DNA of 64,000 nucleotides from Pseudolabrys sp. (GTDB lineage Bacteria > Pseudomonadota > Alphaproteobacteria > Rhizobiales > Xanthobacteraceae): assembly GCA_022841665.1 (NCBI GenBank), contig JALHRB010000004.1:62001-126000 (forward strand). Reading direction: 5' to 3'. The notes beneath the pieces are model-generated. The model did no database searches and was not told where the DNA came from. It was given only the letters and a program-made list of their open reading frames with translations. How positions within the stretch are numbered: position 1 is the first letter of the stretch; every line of letters begins with the position of its first letter. Positions 7,511-43,438 of the stretch are shown here, piece by piece. The position numbers and the translations under genes are program-made.

Positions 7511-8740
7511 CTATTCCGCCGCTTGCCGCTGCTCGCGCGTCGGCAGGCCGAGCCGGTCCCACACGTCGACCAGGGCTTCCGCGAGGCGGTCGATCAGCGC
7601 GTCGTCGTGATAGGGCGAGGGCGTGATCCGCAGGCGTTCCTCGCCGCGCGGCACCGTCGGGTAGTTGATCGGCTGGATATAAATGCCGTGCTCGGCGAGC
7701 AGCATGTCGCTCGCCGCCTTGCACTTCTCGGCGTCGCCGATCAGCACCGGCACGATATGCGTGTCGCTCGGCATCACCGGCAGGCCGGCGGCGTTGAGCA
7801 CCGCCTTCACGCGCGCGGCGCGGTCCTGGTGGCGCTCGCGCTCCCAGCTCGAGGTCTTGAGATGCTTGATGGCGGCGGTCGCGGCGGCGCAGATCGCCGG
7901 CGGCAGCGCGGTGGTGAAGATGAAGCCCGGCGCATAAGAGCGCACGGCGTCGACCATCTCGGCCGATCCCGCGATATAGCCGCCGAGGCAGCCGAAGGCC
8001 TTGGCCAACGTGCCTTCCAGCACGTCGACGCGCGCCATGGCGTTGTCGCGGTCGCAGATGCCGCCGCCGCGCGGGCCGTACATGCCGACCGCGTGCACTT
8101 CGTCGCAATAGGTCATGGCGTTGTAGCGCTGCGCGAGATCGCAGATCGCGTGCACCGGCGCCACGTCGCCGTCCATCGAATAGAGGCTCTCGAACAGGAT
8201 GACCTTCGGGCGCGCCGGGTCGGCCGCCTTCAGCAGCTCTTCGAGATGGGCGAGGTCGTTGTGCCGCCAGATCTGGCGCTCGCAGCCGGCCTGGCGGATG
8301 CCCTCGATCATCGAATTGTGGTTGAGCGCGTCCGACAAGAGCAGGCAGTTCGGCAACAGCTTGGCGATGGTGGCGATGCCGGTCTGGTTCGACACGTAGC
8401 CGGAGGTGAAGACGAGGGCGGCTTCCTTGCCGTGCAGGTCGGCGAGCTCGCGCTCCAGCTCGACCAGCGGATGGTTGGTGCCGGCGATGTTGCGGGTGCC
8501 GCCGGCGCCGGTGCCCATGCGCGTGGCGGTCTCGACCATGGCGCCGATCACCTTCGGGTGCTGGGCCATGCCGAGGTAGTCGTTGGAGCACCAGATGACG
8601 ACCTCGCGGGCGCCTTGGGGCGAATGCCAGAGGGCGTGCGGGAACCGGCCGGCAATGCGCTCCAGGTCGGCAAACACCCGGTAACGCCGCTCATCCCGCA
8701 ACTTGTCCAGCGAAAATGCGAAAAAATCGTTGTAATTCAT
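7511..8740 (-). CDS. hemA: 5-aminolevulinate synthase
   Basis: [36 protein letters not shown]...[16 protein letters not shown]...[21 protein letters not shown]...[15 protein letters not shown]. Confidence 0.96.
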
Positions 8741-8834
8741 TGTGTTTACTTTCCCGCCCCGCGGCGCGCCTCTTTTTTAGAAGCCTTCCAGGGGGTTTGT
8801 CGAGGCGAGATTCGCCGGATTCCAAAGAGGTGCA

Positions 8835-8848
8835 TTGATAGGGATCAA
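8835..8848. promoter_or_regulatory. FNR/FixK-type binding site (TTGATAGGGATCAA)
   Basis: Perfect TTGAT-N4-ATCAA palindrome in the hemA upstream intergenic region, centred about 101 bp upstream of the hemA ATG. Confidence 0.75.
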
Positions 8849-8906
8849 GGGCGCGGCGGGAGGCTCACAGACCCCGCAAAAACAGCCGATTCGCCGCCGT
8901 CCGTCG

Positions 8907-9479
8907 CTAAACCGGATTGCGGCTGGCGAGCGCCCCGAGGTCGATATGGCCGCGGATACCGGCGAGCAGCAGCGCCCCGACATGGAGCTGCAGGGCGAAG
9001 TTGCCGGACAGGATCAAGCCGGCGAGTTCGGCGGGCGTGACCGTGCGCACCTCGATCCCGGCTTCGGCCGGCGCGGCCGAGCGTGGGCCGGTTTCGACAA
9101 AGAAGGAGTGCACCGTGTTGGACAGGCGGGCGGTGCAAGGAGCGTATGAGCCGAGCGCATGCACGGCCCGGGCCGGGTAGCCGGTCTCCTCCAGCAGTTC
9201 ACGGCGGCAGCAGTCCTCCGGCATTTCGCCGGGCTCGACCATTCCCGCCGGCAATTCCCAGGTGAAGCGCTCCACCGCCGGCCGGTACTGGCGCACGATC
9301 GGGATTAAGCCCTCGGGCGTCAATGCGACGATGGCGAGGTAATCCTGCTGGCCGACCGCGTGATAAAGCTCCGGCGCCGCGCCGGGCGTGAACTCCACCG
9401 CGCGCTCGATCACCTTCATCCAGGGTGAGATGTCGATGGTGCGGCGGGATTTGATTTTCGGGAATTCAGGATCGGCCAT
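8907..9479 (-). CDS. NUDIX hydrolase (ADP-ribose pyrophosphatase-like)
   Basis: GMVEPGEMPEDCCRRELLEETGY matches the Nudix box GX5EX7REUXEEXGU. Confidence 0.9.
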   Translation of the reverse strand: MADPEFPKIKSRRTIDISPWMKVIERAVEFTPGAAPELYHAVGQQDYLAIVALTPEGLIPIVRQYRPAVERFTWELPAGMVEPGEMPEDCCRRELLEETGYPARAVHALGSYAPCTARLSNTVHSFFVETGPRSAAPAEAGIEVRTVTPAELAGLILSGNFALQLHVGALLLAGIRGHIDLGALASRNPV

Positions 9480-9500
9480 GCGGGGAGGTTAGCATGTAAC

Positions 9501-12999: not shown

Positions 13000-15135
13000 G
13001 TGGCGGGACCGATGCCGGCGACGACGTTGAGCGATGAAGGAGCGGGCTGGCGCAAATTCGCCCTGCTCGTGCTGGCCGTCGCCGCGGTCGGGTTGCCGGT
13101 CAACAACCTCTCCGACTACGCGCTGCTCGTCATCGTGAGCGTCATTGTCTTCACCGGCACGGTGGACACGCGCGCGCGTGCCTGGCTTGCCGCCGCCGCC
13201 GTCGTCGCGGCTGCCATCGCGGCGCAGGCGCTGCTGTCGCCGCCGCGCATTCAGGAGGGGCACAATGTCTTTTTGCCCCGCCCGGCGCTGGAGCGCGCGC
13301 TGCCGCAGCAGGTCTACCGCGCCATGGCGGACGCGTTCGACGCGCAATATCCCGCCGACCGCCGCTGCGCCCCCGGATCGTCCGGCTGCTGGCAAGGCGG
13401 CACCGCGCCCGACCAGCCTTTCGCGTTTTCGAGTGACGGCATCTGGGTGAAGCCGGAAATGTCGCGCGCGGTGCACGGCTTCGGTTTCTCCGATCCGGTC
13501 TGGTTGCGGCTCGCGGCCATCAACACCATGGCCTACAACTGGTACACCGCCGCGCCTGACGTGCACCGCTCCGACCGCGACCGGCGGTTCTGGGCGGGGC
13601 TCGCGCGCTGGCAGATCGCGATGCCGTGGTACGTGGCGATCCGTCTGCCGTCCGCCTATGCCGGCGGGCAAGTGTGCTGGCGCGGCGACCTGCTGTGGGA
13701 AGGCGACAACGAGCGGTTCTCGCGCTGGAGCGGCGAAGGCTGCCGCGACGTCGAGCCGGCCGACGCCGGGCGGCGCATTTTCGGGCTCTCCATCAAGCCC
13801 GGCAGCCTGGCGATGCAGGTGACGCCGCCGTGGACCGTGCAACTGCGGCTCTATCTGAAGTGGGCGCTCGCCTTTGCCGCCGTCTTCGCCGTCATTGCGC
13901 TGCTGGTCCGCTTCAAGGCGCGGCGCACGCTGCTGCCCTTCCTGCTGATCGGGCTTGCGCTCCTGGTCATCGCCGCCGACGACGCCAGCTTCATCGGCGG
14001 CATGCGGCCGTTCGACGGCGGCGACGACGGTCTCTTCTACGACGGCCTCGGGCGCGTCCTGCTGCAGCGCTTGCTGGCGGGCGACGTCGCCGGCTTTTTG
14101 CAAGGCGGCGAGGACGTCTTCTATTACGGCGGCCCCGGCCTGCGTTACTTCCGCGCCATCGAGCACGCCATCTTCGGCGAATCCTATCTCGGCTACCTGT
14201 CGCTGGTGCTCGCCTTCCCGTTCATCATGCTCGCGCTGTTCCGCCGCTTCCTGCCGGCGCCCTGGCCGGTCGCCTTGATATTGCTGTTCGTCGCGGTGCC
14301 GCTTGGCACGCTGTTCGGCACCACTTTTGTGCAGTACTCGAAATGGGCCGCGCGCGGCTTCGCCGACCCGGCCGCCTACATTCTCTTCACCGCCGGGCTT
14401 GTGGTGCTGATCGGCGCGCAGGACGGCCCGAACCGCCGCTTCCTGCCCGGCTTCTTTGCCGCGCTGCTGTTCGCGCTCGGCATCTTCATGAAGCCGATTA
14501 TTGCGCCGGCCGCCGCGGTGCTGCTCGGCGGCGCCGGGCTTGCCGCGCTTTACCTTCGCCAATGGCCGCGGCTTGCCGGCCTCTGCGTCGGCTTCCTGCC
14601 GGTGTTTTCGATGGCGCTGCACAACTGGGTGTTCGGCCACGTCTTCGTGCTGTTCTCGTCGAACTCCGGCGACGCCAATCTGCTGACCATGCCGCCCTCG
14701 GCCTGGCTGGGCGCGCTGCGCGAACTCGTCACGTTCAACTTCGGCGGCGATTTCCTGCGCCGCGGTGCGAGCCAGCTTGCCGACTGGCTGAGCAACCCCG
14801 CGGAGTCGCGCTGGACCATCCCGCTCAACCTCGTCGGCGTCGCGATCCTCGCCTGGGTCGTTACGCGCGGCCGCGCTTTCGATCCCTGGCTGCGCCTGAT
14901 CGGCGCCGCCGCGCTGGCGCAGCACGCGGTCGCCTTGTTCTATAATGCCGCCACCGCCCGCTACCATTTCCTTGCCTGGCTGCTGACCATGCTCGTGGTC
15001 GTGGTCTGGTTTCACGATGTCGGAAGCGCGTGGCTGGCGCGGCGCTATCCCGTGGTCGCGCGGCGCATTGCAAATCATCGCGCGGCGCGGCAGCTTGGCG
15101 CCGCGTTGACGCGCCTCCAGAAGGGTTCGGCATGA
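13000..15135 (+). CDS. Large multi-TM membrane protein of unknown function (glycosyltransferase-C-like topology)
   Basis: 711-aa ORF, long soluble insert after two N-terminal TMs, many hydrophobic helices C-terminally; alternative start ATG 13012. Confidence 0.7.
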   Translation: MAGPMPATTLSDEGAGWRKFALLVLAVAAVGLPVNNLSDYALLVIVSVIVFTGTVDTRARAWLAAAAVVAAAIAAQALLSPPRIQEGHNVFLPRPALERALPQQVYRAMADAFDAQYPADRRCAPGSSGCWQGGTAPDQPFAFSSDGIWVKPEMSRAVHGFGFSDPVWLRLAAINTMAYNWYTAAPDVHRSDRDRRFWAGLARWQIAMPWYVAIRLPSAYAGGQVCWRGDLLWEGDNERFSRWSGEGCRDVEPADAGRRIFGLSIKPGSLAMQVTPPWTVQLRLYLKWALAFAAVFAVIALLVRFKARRTLLPFLLIGLALLVIAADDASFIGGMRPFDGGDDGLFYDGLGRVLLQRLLAGDVAGFLQGGEDVFYYGGPGLRYFRAIEHAIFGESYLGYLSLVLAFPFIMLALFRRFLPAPWPVALILLFVAVPLGTLFGTTFVQYSKWAARGFADPAAYILFTAGLVVLIGAQDGPNRRFLPGFFAALLFALGIFMKPIIAPAAAVLLGGAGLAALYLRQWPRLAGLCVGFLPVFSMALHNWVFGHVFVLFSSNSGDANLLTMPPSAWLGALRELVTFNFGGDFLRRGASQLADWLSNPAESRWTIPLNLVGVAILAWVVTRGRAFDPWLRLIGAAALAQHAVALFYNAATARYHFLAWLLTMLVVVVWFHDVGSAWLARRYPVVARRIANHRAARQLGAALTRLQKGSA

Positions 15136-17027: not shown

Positions 17028-19328
17028 ATGGTTGGCGCGTCGAAAAAGCTGCGCAAATACCGCGACCGGTGGGCCGTAAGCCTTGCCGGTCTGCTCGGCT
17101 TTGCGCTCACCGCCGGCGTGATGGAGATCATCGATCATTATTCGGTGTCGCTGAGCGCGCTGTCGATTGCGCTCGCGGCCGTGGTCGGCGCCCTCTCCGG
17201 CATGCTGCTGGTCGGCTCGGTGGTCGCCGTGCGCGTGCGCCGCAAGCTGTCCGAGCAGAACCTGCGCCTCGACGCCGCGCTCAACAACATGAACCAGGGC
17301 CTGTGCATGTTCGATGCGCAGAACCGGCTGGTCGTTTGGAACGAGCGCTACCGGGCGATGTACAACATCGATCCGCTGCGCATCTGGCGCGGCGCCACCA
17401 TCCGCGACCTGCTCGACGCCCGCATTGCCGCCGGCACCTTCCCGCTCGATCCGGCGGCCTACGACGCCGACCTGCGCGCGCGCCTCAAAGAGGGACATAC
17501 CTTCACGATCAACGTCGAATTGTCCGACGGCCGCAGCATTGCCGTCGTCAACCATCCGATGGCCGGCGGCGGCTGGGTGGCGATGCACGAGGACAATACC
17601 GAGCGCAAGCGCGCCGTGCGCGACCTTGAGCACACCCGCTCGTTCCTCGACACCATCATCGAGAACGTGCCGTCGCCGATCATCGTCAAGGACATCCCGA
17701 GCCTGCGCTATTCGCTGATCAACCGCGCGGCGGAAAATTACCTCGGGCTTGATCGTGCCGTGATGCTGGGCAAGACGGCGAAAGAGGTCATGCCGGCGGC
17801 CAGCGCCGAGGCGATCGAGGCCGAGGATCAGAGGCTGCTCGCTGCCGGCAAGCCGGTGTTCATCGACGAGCACGCCATCGTCACGCCGAACAACGGCACG
17901 CGCATTGTGACGGCGGCCCGGCTGCCCGCGCTCGAGCCCGACGGCGGAGCGAAATACCTGATCACGGTCATCAACGACGTCACCGACCGGAAGCGCAGCG
18001 AGCAGCGGCTTGCGCACATGGCGCGCCACGATCAGTTGACAGATCTGCCTAACCGCGCCGCCTTCAACGAGTGCCTGACCGCCACGCTCGACATCGCCGC
18101 CCGCTCGGGCGAGAGTTTCGCGGTGCTGTGCATGGACCTCGACCGCTTCAAGGAGGTCAACGACGTGTACGGCCATTCGGCCGGCGACGCGCTGTTGCGC
18201 GATCTCGCCCGCCGCATGGAAGAGGCCGCGCAGGGCGCCTTCATCGCCCGCATTGGCGGCGACGAATTCGCCGTGGTCACGCCCACCGGCCCGCAGCCGT
18301 CCGCCGCCGAGGCTCTGGCCGTTCGGCTGGCCGCGGCGCTCGACGTCGATATCGACGTCGACGGCCATCCCATGCGCACCGGCCTGACCGTCGGCATCGC
18401 CGTCTTCCCGCAGGACGGCGGCGACGCGGCCACCCTGATGGCCAATGCCGATGCCGCGCTGTTCCGCGCCAAGGCGGAGGCGCGCGGCTCCATCCGTTTC
18501 TTCGAAGTCTCGATGGACAAGCAGCTGCGCGAGAAGCGCGCGCTGCAGCAGGACCTGCGCTCGGCCCTTGCGCGCGGCGAGATCGAGCTGCACTACCAGC
18601 CGCAGGCGCAGATCGGCGGCGGCGTCACCGGCTTCGAGGCGCTGGTGCGCTGGCATCATCCGCGCCACGGCATGGTGCCGCCTTCGACCTTCATCCCGCT
18701 CGCCGAGGAGAGCGGCTTCATCATGGCGCTGGGCGAATGGATACTGCGCACCGCCTGCCGCGAGGCGGCGTCGTGGCCGCGCCCGCAGCGCATCTCCGTC
18801 AACCTGTCGCCGGTGCAGTTCAAGCACGGCGACCTGCCGGCGCTCGTGCACGAGATTCTGCTGGAGACGGGGCTGGCGCCGGCGCGCCTGGAGGTGGAGA
18901 TCACCGAAGGCGTGCTGATCGGCGACTTCAACCGCGCGGTGTCGATCCTGCGCCGGCTGAAGAACCTCGGCCTGCGCATCGCCATGGACGATTTCGGCAC
19001 CGGCTATTCGTCGCTCTCCTACCTGCAGTCGTTCCCCTTCGACAAGATCAAGATCGACCGCGCCTTCGTGTCGAACCTCGGCCGCAGCGCGCAGGCGGCG
19101 ACCATCATCCGCGCGGTGATCGCGCTCGGCCGCGGGCTGCATCTGCCGGTGGTGGCGGAAGGCGTGGAGACCGAGGAGCAGCTCAAGTTCCTGGCCGCCG
19201 AAGGCTGCACCGAGATCCAGGGCTATCTGGTCGGCCGCCCGAAGCCGATCGCCGACTATGCCGCCGAGGTCGGGCGCGCCGCGCCGCCGCGCAAGCCGAA
19301 GAAGTCGCAGTTGAAGGCGGCGAGCTGA
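17028..19328 (+). CDS. TM-PAS-GGDEF-EAL bifunctional diguanylate cyclase/phosphodiesterase
   Basis: PAS-like NNMNQGLCMFDAQNRLVVWNERY; FIARIGGDEFAVVTP (GGDEF); GFEALVRWHHP (EAL) and DDFGTGYSSLSYL. Confidence 0.93.
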   Translation: MVGASKKLRKYRDRWAVSLAGLLGFALTAGVMEIIDHYSVSLSALSIALAAVVGALSGMLLVGSVVAVRVRRKLSEQNLRLDAALNNMNQGLCMFDAQNRLVVWNERYRAMYNIDPLRIWRGATIRDLLDARIAAGTFPLDPAAYDADLRARLKEGHTFTINVELSDGRSIAVVNHPMAGGGWVAMHEDNTERKRAVRDLEHTRSFLDTIIENVPSPIIVKDIPSLRYSLINRAAENYLGLDRAVMLGKTAKEVMPAASAEAIEAEDQRLLAAGKPVFIDEHAIVTPNNGTRIVTAARLPALEPDGGAKYLITVINDVTDRKRSEQRLAHMARHDQLTDLPNRAAFNECLTATLDIAARSGESFAVLCMDLDRFKEVNDVYGHSAGDALLRDLARRMEEAAQGAFIARIGGDEFAVVTPTGPQPSAAEALAVRLAAALDVDIDVDGHPMRTGLTVGIAVFPQDGGDAATLMANADAALFRAKAEARGSIRFFEVSMDKQLREKRALQQDLRSALARGEIELHYQPQAQIGGGVTGFEALVRWHHPRHGMVPPSTFIPLAEESGFIMALGEWILRTACREAASWPRPQRISVNLSPVQFKHGDLPALVHEILLETGLAPARLEVEITEGVLIGDFNRAVSILRRLKNLGLRIAMDDFGTGYSSLSYLQSFPFDKIKIDRAFVSNLGRSAQAATIIRAVIALGRGLHLPVVAEGVETEEQLKFLAAEGCTEIQGYLVGRPKPIADYAAEVGRAAPPRKPKKSQLKAAS

Positions 19329-19501: not shown

Positions 19502-19771
19502 ATGCCAATAGTCGCCGTCGTTCACCGCCTGAAAAACTTCGATGCGTGGTTCACGCAATTCAAGGCCAATCCGCCGCCGAAGGTTGGCCGCTGGCGCGTG
19601 CTGCGCGGCGCCGACGACCGCAACCGCGCGCATGTGGTCGGGGAAATGGCCGCCTCCGAGGTGACGGGGGTCAAGGACTTCCTCGCCTCGCCGCACATGC
19701 AAGAGGTGTTCAAGAACGTCAACGCCATGTCGACGGCGCCGGTCGAAATCGTGTGGCTGGACGAGGTGTGA
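19502..19771 (+). CDS. Small conserved hypothetical protein (89 aa)
   Basis: MPIVAVVHRLKNFDAWFTQFKANPPPKVGRW... Confidence 0.6.
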   Translation: MPIVAVVHRLKNFDAWFTQFKANPPPKVGRWRVLRGADDRNRAHVVGEMAASEVTGVKDFLASPHMQEVFKNVNAMSTAPVEIVWLDEV

Positions 19772-19826
19772 CAGTGGTCGGCGGATAGTCTTCGCTGGTT
19801 TGCCGGCCGGCGCTCCGGAGGAGCGA

Positions 19827-19878
19827 AGGCTGGTGCTGCCGGAGTGGATTGAACACTCGACCTCCCCCTTACCAAGGG
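19827..19878. repeat. 52-bp direct repeat, partial copy of tRNA-Thr 3' half (att-like, copy A)
   Basis: aggctggtgctgccggagtggattgaacactcgacctcccccttaccaaggg, identical to 20472-20523 inside/adjacent to tRNA-Thr. Confidence 0.93.
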
Positions 19879-19930
19879 CCGGGCGGTCGCGCCCGGTGGC
19901 GGGATGGGGCGCGTGTGCTATAGTGTGGGC

Positions 19931-20161
19931 ATGGGCACGAACGTCAAAGATTTGCTGCGGCAGGTCGAAGCCTGGCCCGCGGAGGACCAGCAGGAACTGG
20001 CCGACGTGGCACGTGTGATAGAGGCCCGTCGCACAGGCGTGTACCGCCTGTCCGATGACGAGCGCGCTGCGGTGCGTGAAGGCATGGCGGCGGCCCGTCG
20101 CGGCGAGTTCGTCCCCGACGAAGAGATGGAGAGGTTCTATCGCCTGCACCGGGACGCATGA
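19931..20161 (+). CDS. ParD-like antitoxin
   Basis: MGTNVKDLLRQVEAWPAEDQQELADVARVIEARR...LSDDERAAVREGMAAARRGEFVPDEEMERFYRLHRDA; 4-bp ATGA overlap with downstream ParE-like gene. Confidence 0.78.
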   Translation: MGTNVKDLLRQVEAWPAEDQQELADVARVIEARRTGVYRLSDDERAAVREGMAAARRGEFVPDEEMERFYRLHRDA

Positions 20162-20460
20162 AGGTCCGCTTCACCCGGCCGGCGCAGATCGATCTCCAAC
20201 GCATCCACACTTACGTCAGCGATGATAATCCGGCCGAGGCGTCGCGCCTGATCGCGCGGTTGATCGAGCATGCGCGGGCGCTCGGCCGCACACCGCATGA
20301 GGGCCGGTCGACGGATGAGCCGAATGCCCGGGTCATCGTGGTGCCGCGGCTGCGCTATTTTATTTTCTACGCGGTCGAAGGCGACGAGGTGCATATCACG
20401 CATATACGCCACACATCGCGGCGCAGACCGCCCGGCTGGCGGCGCGAAGCCAAGGATTGA
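20158..20460 (+). CDS. ParE/RelE-family toxin
   Basis: MKVRFTRPAQIDLQRIHTYVSDDNPAEASRLIARLIEHARALGRTPHEGR...VPRLRYFIFYAVEGDEVHITHIRHTSRR, typical ParE. Confidence 0.88.
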   Translation: MKVRFTRPAQIDLQRIHTYVSDDNPAEASRLIARLIEHARALGRTPHEGRSTDEPNARVIVVPRLRYFIFYAVEGDEVHITHIRHTSRRRPPGWRREAKD

Positions 20461-20471
20461 TGAAGGAGCGG

Positions 20472-20523
20472 AGGCTGGTGCTGCCGGAGTGGATTGAACA
20501 CTCGACCTCCCCCTTACCAAGGG
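20472..20523. repeat. 52-bp direct repeat within tRNA-Thr gene (att-like, copy B)
   Basis: Exact match to 19827-19878. Confidence 0.93.
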
Positions 20524-20550
20524 GGTGCTCTACCACTGAGCTACGGCAGC
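20476..20550 (-). tRNA. tRNA-Thr (GGT)
   Basis: Reverse complement GCTGCCGTAGCTCAGTGGTAGAGCACCCCCTTGGTAAGGGGGAGGTCGAGTGTTCAATCCACTCCGGCAGCACCA folds as cloverleaf; anticodon GGT; CCA encoded. Confidence 0.95.
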
Positions 20551-20910: not shown

Positions 20911-22200
20911 ATGGATCGGATCAAGATTGTCGGCGGCCAACGGCTGAACGGGACCATCCCGATCTCCGGCGCCAAGAACGCCACGCTGCCCTTGATGATC
21001 GCGAGCCTGCTCACCGAGGAGCCGCTGGTCCTCGAGAACGTGCCGCGGCTCGCCGACGTCATCCAGCTCCAGCGCATCCTCGGCAATCACGGCGTCGACG
21101 TGACGATCGAGGGCAAGAAGCCCGGCGCCGATCCCAATCACGGCCGCACCATCCAGCTTTCCGCCCGAACAATCGTCGACACCACCGCGCCCTACGAGCT
21201 CGTCTCGAAAATGCGCGCGAGCTTCTGGGTGATCGCGCCTTTGGTGGCGCGCATGGGCGAGGCCAAGGTCTCGATGCCCGGCGGCTGCGCCATCGGCACG
21301 CGCCCGGTCGACCTGCTCATCATGGCGCTGGAGGCGCTCGGCGCCGAGATCGAGATCGAAGCCGGCTATGTCATCGCCCGCGCCAAAAAAGGCCTGCGCG
21401 GCGGCGAGATCGTCTTCCCCAAGGTCACCGTCGGCGGCACCCACACCGCGCTGATGGCGGCGGCGCTCGCCCGCGGCACCAGCGTGATCGAGAACGCCGC
21501 GCGCGAGCCCGAGATCGGCGACGTCGCCGACTGCCTCAACAAGATGGGCGCCAAGATTTCCGGCGCCGGCACCGCGCGCATCGTGGTGGAGGGCGTGGCC
21601 CGCCTTTCCGGCACGCGCCACGCCGTGCTGCCCGACCGCATCGAGACCGGCACCTACGCCATGGCGGTGGCGATGACCGGCGGCGACGTGCTGTTGCAGA
21701 ATACGCGGCCGGATTTGCTGCAGGCCGCGCTCGACGTGCTGGAGCAGGCCGGCGCCACGGTGACGCCGACCAACGAGGGCATCCGCATCGCGCGCAATGG
21801 TTCAGGCCTGATGCCGGTCGACGTGACCACCGCGCCGTTCCCCGGCTTCCCGACCGACTTGCAGGCGCAGTTGATGGCGCTGATGTCGCGCGCCAAGGGC
21901 ACCTCGCGCATCACCGAGACCATCTTCGAGAACCGTTTCATGCACGTGCAGGAGCTCTCGCGCCTGGGTGCGCGCATCAAGCTCAACGGCGAAACGGCGA
22001 CCATCGAAGGCGTCGAGCGGCTGAAAGGCGCGCAGGTGATGGCGACCGATTTACGCGCGTCGGTGTCGCTGGTGATCGCCGGGCTGGCCGCCGAAGGCGA
22101 GACCACGGTCAACCGCGTCTATCACCTCGACCGCGGCTTCGAGAAGCTCGAGGAAAAGCTCGCCGCCTGCGGCGCGGCCATCGAGCGGATCAGCGATTGA
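20911..22200 (+). CDS. murA: UDP-N-acetylglucosamine 1-carboxyvinyltransferase
   Basis: [34 protein letters not shown]...[15 protein letters not shown]...[17 protein letters not shown]. Confidence 0.97.

Positions 22201-37114: not shown

Positions 37115-43438
<6,324 letters not shown>

Follow-up and report, generated by a model that had tools for sequence, protein, structure and literature searches.

A type II toxin-antitoxin (TA) pair lies between two direct copies of the 3′ half of tRNA-Thr(GGT) in the genome of a Pseudolabrys sp. We put at about 0.7 the probability that this unit is a CIME-like remnant of a mobile island, flanked by putative attL and attR sites, lacking an integrase and collapsed to its addiction module. 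The repeat, the empty sites in related genomes, a cut point common to other genomes and, elsewhere, elements both with and without an integrase at this tRNA were observed directly; the lost integrase, the deletion and addiction as the cause of survival are what we infer. Throughout, the window is the whole stretch of 64,000 nucleotides analysed, and coordinates are positions within it.

The repeat and the genes it encloses

The features of the locus are as follows.

17028–19328, plus strand: gene for a GGDEF/EAL protein, ancestrally adjacent on the distal side (from locus comparison; domain name given by motif, not by profile)
19782–19830, minus strand: genus-type tRNA trailer (CCTTCGC... element) behind the distal repeat (from trailer comparison)
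19819–19878, minus strand: distal repeat, attR-like, read as the displaced original tRNA 3′ end (from repeat alignment)
19919–19924, plus strand: candidate −10 element TATAGT of the TA operon (read from the sequence only)
19931–20161, plus strand: antitoxin gene, 76 aa, no Pfam family, predicted all-helical (start conserved in the homologue alignment)
20158–20460, plus strand: toxin gene, 100 aa, ParE/RelE superfamily (PF05016, TIGR02385)
20464–20523, minus strand: proximal repeat, attL-like, from the anticodon loop through CCA and 12 nt into the trailer (from repeat alignment)
20476–20550, minus strand: tRNA-Thr(GGT), complete and single-copy (ARAGORN)
20911–22200, plus strand: murA, the conserved neighbour on the 5′ side of the tRNA (from locus comparison)

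ARAGORN places tRNA-Thr(GGT) at 20476–20550 on the minus strand of the window, and no second full copy exists elsewhere in the genome, so the gene is single-copy. The direct repeat (19819–19878 against 20464–20523, spacing 645) is 60 nt long with one mismatch (98% identity), and its exact core of 52 nt starts at 19827 and 20472. This core is the longest exact direct repeat of the window, where first-order simulations gave maxima of 15–19 nt. Moreover, the 48-nt tRNA part occurs exactly twice against an expectation from shuffles of 0.00, and a search across the genome found no further copies of the repeat. Alignment and ARAGORN thus agree with the sequence-only reading, which had described a repeat of 52 bp exact, or 60 bp with one mismatch, running from the anticodon loop of tRNA-Thr(GGT) through CCA into downstream sequence. 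The span is that of the tRNA 3′ half, from anticodon loop to CCA, with 12 nt of trailer. The distal copy runs from tRNA position 28 through CCA into these 12 nt, its tRNA part (19831–19878) lies on the same strand as the tRNA, and it matches the proximal copy at 48/48 tRNA positions and 11/12 trailer positions.

The two copies differ in what follows them. A CCTTCGC... trailer containing a GGC.GGCAA.CC stretch stands behind several tRNA genes of this genome and of the genus. All of it is present at the distal copy; at the proximal copy the first 12 nt alone are found before toxin-side sequence follows. The distal copy is therefore the ancestral gene end, and the tRNA 3′ half in current use, from about 20523 down, would have arrived with the element and restored the tRNA-Thr(GGT) gene. 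Displacement of the original 3′ end, with the tRNA rebuilt from the copy carried by the element, is the usual result of integrase insertion. Weak matches of the distal flank in relatives were considered as extra att fragments and rejected, since most of them belong to trailers behind ordinary genes for tRNA-Ala, -Leu, -Cys and -Thr(CGT); as such they speak for the distal copy being the original end of the gene. A 7-bp stem predicted in the distal trailer is no stronger than those of shuffled sequences (z −0.96).

Between the 60-bp repeats are 585 bp holding only two genes, both on the plus strand and forming a type II TA pair. The antitoxin comes first and its TGA is overlapped by the toxin ATG (ATGA, 20158–20161); 15 bp separate the toxin stop codon, which finishes at 20460, from the CCA end at 20476. 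All of this bears out the earlier description of a TA pair as the sole content of the interior. The toxin matches PF05016 (E 2.3e-14, 54.1 bits against a cut-off of 23) and, weakly but above the cut-off of 27.9, the RelE/StbE model TIGR02385 (30.8 bits), so that its label as ParE-like stands. A PF05016 toxin preceded by its antitoxin with an ATGA overlap is also the arrangement of type II TA systems of the ParE/RelE superfamily. The antitoxin most likely starts at 19931 rather than at 19904, since the Met at 19931 is common to its homologues. A Pfam search assigned it to no family, nor did any ParD model appear among its relatives. Its structure model has four helices (pLDDT 83, pTM 0.42) and lacks the N-terminal beta strand of ParD type, and a fold search with this model returned no match. 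Therefore the antitoxin label ParD-like, also proposed from the sequence, has to be dropped: the pair shares a ParE-family toxin with ParDE but differs from it in that no ribbon-helix-helix ParD antitoxin was found. A consensus promoter scan of the TA operon gave no match. The TA genes have a GC3 of 0.78 against 0.91–0.92 for ilvD, the GGDEF/EAL gene and murA. In a comparison of the toxin with one relative pN was 0.135 and pS 0.558, which places the TA family under purifying selection among its relatives.

Empty sites and other insertions at tRNA-Thr(GGT)

In the genus, tRNA-Thr(GGT) is located upstream of murA. The same tRNA-murA locus, with one tRNA copy followed directly by a chromosomal neighbour, is present in at least 11 members of the genus. 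In four of them (G019, G015, G003 and G021) this neighbour is the GGDEF/EAL gene, as in the window, at a distance of 21 to 135 bp from the 3′ end of the tRNA; in seven further genomes it is either ilvD or a gene for a membrane protein with homology to window 13000–15135. The empty sites that the earlier reading had proposed to look for were thus found, with conserved flanks, and none of the tRNA-Thr loci examined in genus relatives contains a second tRNA copy. The relatives compared are not close (murA about 81–89% identical in amino acids), so the age of the insertion is bounded only by the near-perfect repeat. In one relative (G018) the same interval is occupied by 4.7 kb that include ABC transporter genes, and in the window an 89-aa ORF (19502–19771) lies between the GGDEF/EAL gene and the distal repeat, outside the latter. 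This ORF has no match in other genus genomes at E 1e-8 and is possibly an older acquisition at the same spot. Together with the content of G018 it marks the interval as a variable spot.

These flanks also bear on whether the unit is an assembly artefact, with a TA fragment of foreign origin joined in a metagenome bin by way of the 52-bp repeat. The draft genome is broken into 125 contigs, and a repeat of this length could confuse a short k-mer; however, ordinary read lengths exceed the repeat, both the trailer at the distal copy and the gene next to it agree with the locus, and the unit lies within a contig of 147 kb. We give this explanation very little credence.

A search of 219 genomes of the order found tRNA-Thr(GGT) fragments with the same cut point in six other genomes (G036, G254, G141, G140, G058 and G181). 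When aligned by their CCA ends, the fragments' own tRNA identity begins at position 28–31 in all six, as it does in the window (G000). This crossover position corresponds to the anticodon-loop class (site ‘A’) of the Islander survey (PMC4383910). Three of the six carry islands of 41 kb (G058), 45 kb (G141) and 60 kb (G140) with a PF00589 tyrosine integrase that ends 13–31 bp from the fragment, and in each of the three the integrase is kept at the fragment side. In G181 an orphan fragment adjoins a broken integrase reading frame. The segments in G254 (16 kb) and G036 (2.85 kb) yielded no integrase with a small home-made profile. The latter (L144, 2632–5529) has a tRNA-Thr(GGT) repeat of 45/45 bp and two unclassified ORFs (414 and 470 aa). 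Moreover, the same att core occurs in 13 IMG/VR viral-contig stretches, with an integrase-like ORF in 10/13, and in Sinorhizobium meliloti tRNA-Thr(GGU) genes are reported on phage-related elements and many tRNA genes serve as integration sites (PMC11476347). The empty sites in relatives and the cut point common to integrase-bearing islands accord with the suggestion that the repeat is an att-type duplication at the tRNA.

Duplication of the tRNA 3′ half by integrase-free illegitimate recombination, together with capture of the TA pair, might be suspected because the repeat extends 12 nt past CCA and an integrase is absent. The cut point, however, matches that of the integrase-type fragments in the six other genomes, and the repeats of two of these (G058 and G181) likewise run into the trailer. 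We regard this origin as highly improbable.

Other tRNA-Thr arrangements were noted in the relatives. Two tRNA-Thr(CGT) 3′-half fragments about 330 bp apart occur in L087 (G022) at about 1117–1500, with no complete tRNA within the 2.5 kb examined; two tRNA-Thr 3′ fragments about 113 bp apart lie at a contig end (L147, G005:C152, 1–167); and L156 (G148) has two complete tRNA-Thr(GGT) genes 2.9 kb apart, of equal identity to the query.

Probable collapse of an island or possible movement in trans

The most probable history begins with an element whose tyrosine integrase would have inserted it into the 3′ half of tRNA-Thr(GGT), with crossover at the anticodon loop. Beside the insertion the gene would have been rebuilt from the tRNA 3′ end that the element carried, and the original 3′ end with its trailer would have been displaced to the far side. 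One or more later internal deletions may then have taken the integrase and cargo, sparing the ParE/RelE-type TA between intact att sites. In this history the TA would have lain at the tRNA-proximal edge of the element. If so, and with the integrase at the fragment side, exactly the present structure would follow from one internal deletion that ran from the integrase and stopped immediately upstream of the TA. Loss of the TA, for example by recombination between the repeats, also removes the antitoxin, and the TA would therefore be the piece most resistant to deletion. By analogy with other islands, addiction may be the reason for its survival.

Collapse is supported by the empty sites, the absence of the TA from this place in the genus relatives, the common cut point, the elements with and without an integrase at the same tRNA and the genus-type distal trailer, and further by the GC3 of the TA, the pN/pS of the toxin, the viral att cores and a tRNA-Arg-linked TA in another genus (G384). 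Against it, no integrase scar is present and so the parental island is not seen, the relatives of the TA are not near integrases in the DNA examined and, apart from that in G384, not linked to tRNA genes, and the deletion must have stopped within about 40 bp of the TA promoter.

The best genus relatives of the TA lie elsewhere in G005, G017 and G060 (64–73% toxin identity), with a frameshifted copy in G027. Across 43 genus genomes, which include one MAG named Pseudolabrys, the TA is absent from the tRNA-Thr(GGT) place in all others searched. No close match was found on phages, plasmids or viral contigs, and no integrase in the surrounding DNA examined of the relatives. Linkage to a tRNA was seen in G384 only, where a related TA (73% toxin identity) stands beside a tRNA-Arg 3′ end. 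At that locus (L160, 6571–8934) two inverted copies of tRNA-Arg(CCT), with about 91% identity and one of them apparently degraded, enclose the TA together with an unclassified ORF of 366 aa.

The sequence-only reading had offered either a collapsed island or a non-autonomous mini-element. The latter would be a circle of about 645 bp, comprising attP and the TA, integrated and excised in trans by a phage or island integrase that uses tRNA-Thr(GGT). In its favour, the att copies are both nearly perfect, nothing but the TA with its promoter occupies the interior, and integrases that would suit are present in genomes of the order and on viral contigs. However, searches of the 43 genus genomes, of 297 family genomes (by toxin) and of 84,980 species, one genome per species, revealed no other repeat-TA-tRNA unit, and for this reason we consider a mini-element unlikely. 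The recombinases of the host likewise speak against it. As had been supposed, no integrase lies between the repeats, and the window's contig has no PF00589 match. The genome has four tyrosine recombinases, all on other contigs. In the search proposed earlier for one with a matching att, these proved to be a XerC type, a XerD type, a phage integrase beside tRNA-Arg(TCT), and an integrase of P4 type on contig 8 that has neither a tRNA nor a piece of one in its vicinity. We prefer the collapsed island to the mini-element, since two further genomes of the order have segments without an integrase at tRNA-Thr(GGT) and a second unit is lacking. That sub-kilobase tRNA-targeted units of attP and TA alone are moved in trans by resident phage or island integrases and kept by addiction is, rated on its own, distinctly improbable; if true, such mobile units would be overlooked by existing island finders, owing to their integrase requirement and length filter.

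The phage integrase at tRNA-Arg(TCT) belongs to a phage-like region of the same genome (L130, G000:C51), where its gene (8278–9348) ends beside the tRNA (9404–9480). An integron gene cassette was also considered for the unit and rejected, as no integron integrase was found: the two highest values (99.8 and 93.7 bits, with the cut-off at 265) belong to proteins whose best match is a recombinase of general/XerD type or of XerC type.

Relation to known elements

A cis-mobilizable element (CIME) has lost its integration and transfer genes and retains attL and attR (PMC5704250), and integrase-less ssrA islands of this sort occur in Dehalococcoides (PMC3146451). The window unit resembles them as a putatively att-flanked segment at an RNA gene, bounded at the cut point of integrase-bearing islands and without integration or transfer genes. 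It differs in that a single TA pair is left in the 585 bp between putative att sites. As in the anticodon-loop islands of Islander (PMC4383910), a displaced 3′ tDNA fragment lies in the correct orientation and is identical from anticodon loop to CCA; the unit departs from those islands in being very short and without an integrase. Of the hallmarks of a tRNA island it thus has the tRNA with its displaced, directly oriented 3′ fragment and the empty site, and lacks the integrase. In Shewanella putrefaciens the type II TA HipAB is thought to keep the tRNA-integrated island CGI48 from loss (PMC8978831). Both cases place a type II TA within a tRNA-integrated element, but CGI48 is an intact island of 48 kb, whereas here the TA is the sole gene pair and any stabilisation is proposed by comparison.

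The insertion mechanism is well known; the size (0.6 kb, with the TA alone left) is unusually small. The unit may represent a near-limiting case of island decay, in which both ends of the insertion can still be read and the addiction module holds the only remaining genes. Since a 52-bp direct repeat flanks the TA alone, and its loss should restore an intact tRNA, the locus could serve as a natural test construct for the resistance of chromosomal TA pairs to deletion. Islander filters on integrase and length and would probably have dropped it (PMC4383910), which suggests that very short integrase-less tRNA-flanked units are under-counted by methods of this kind.

Elsewhere in the window, a 2107-aa ORF (37115–43438) looks like a hybrid histidine kinase containing a long repeat array and is the source of many exact repeats of 42–48 bp at 38–40 kb.
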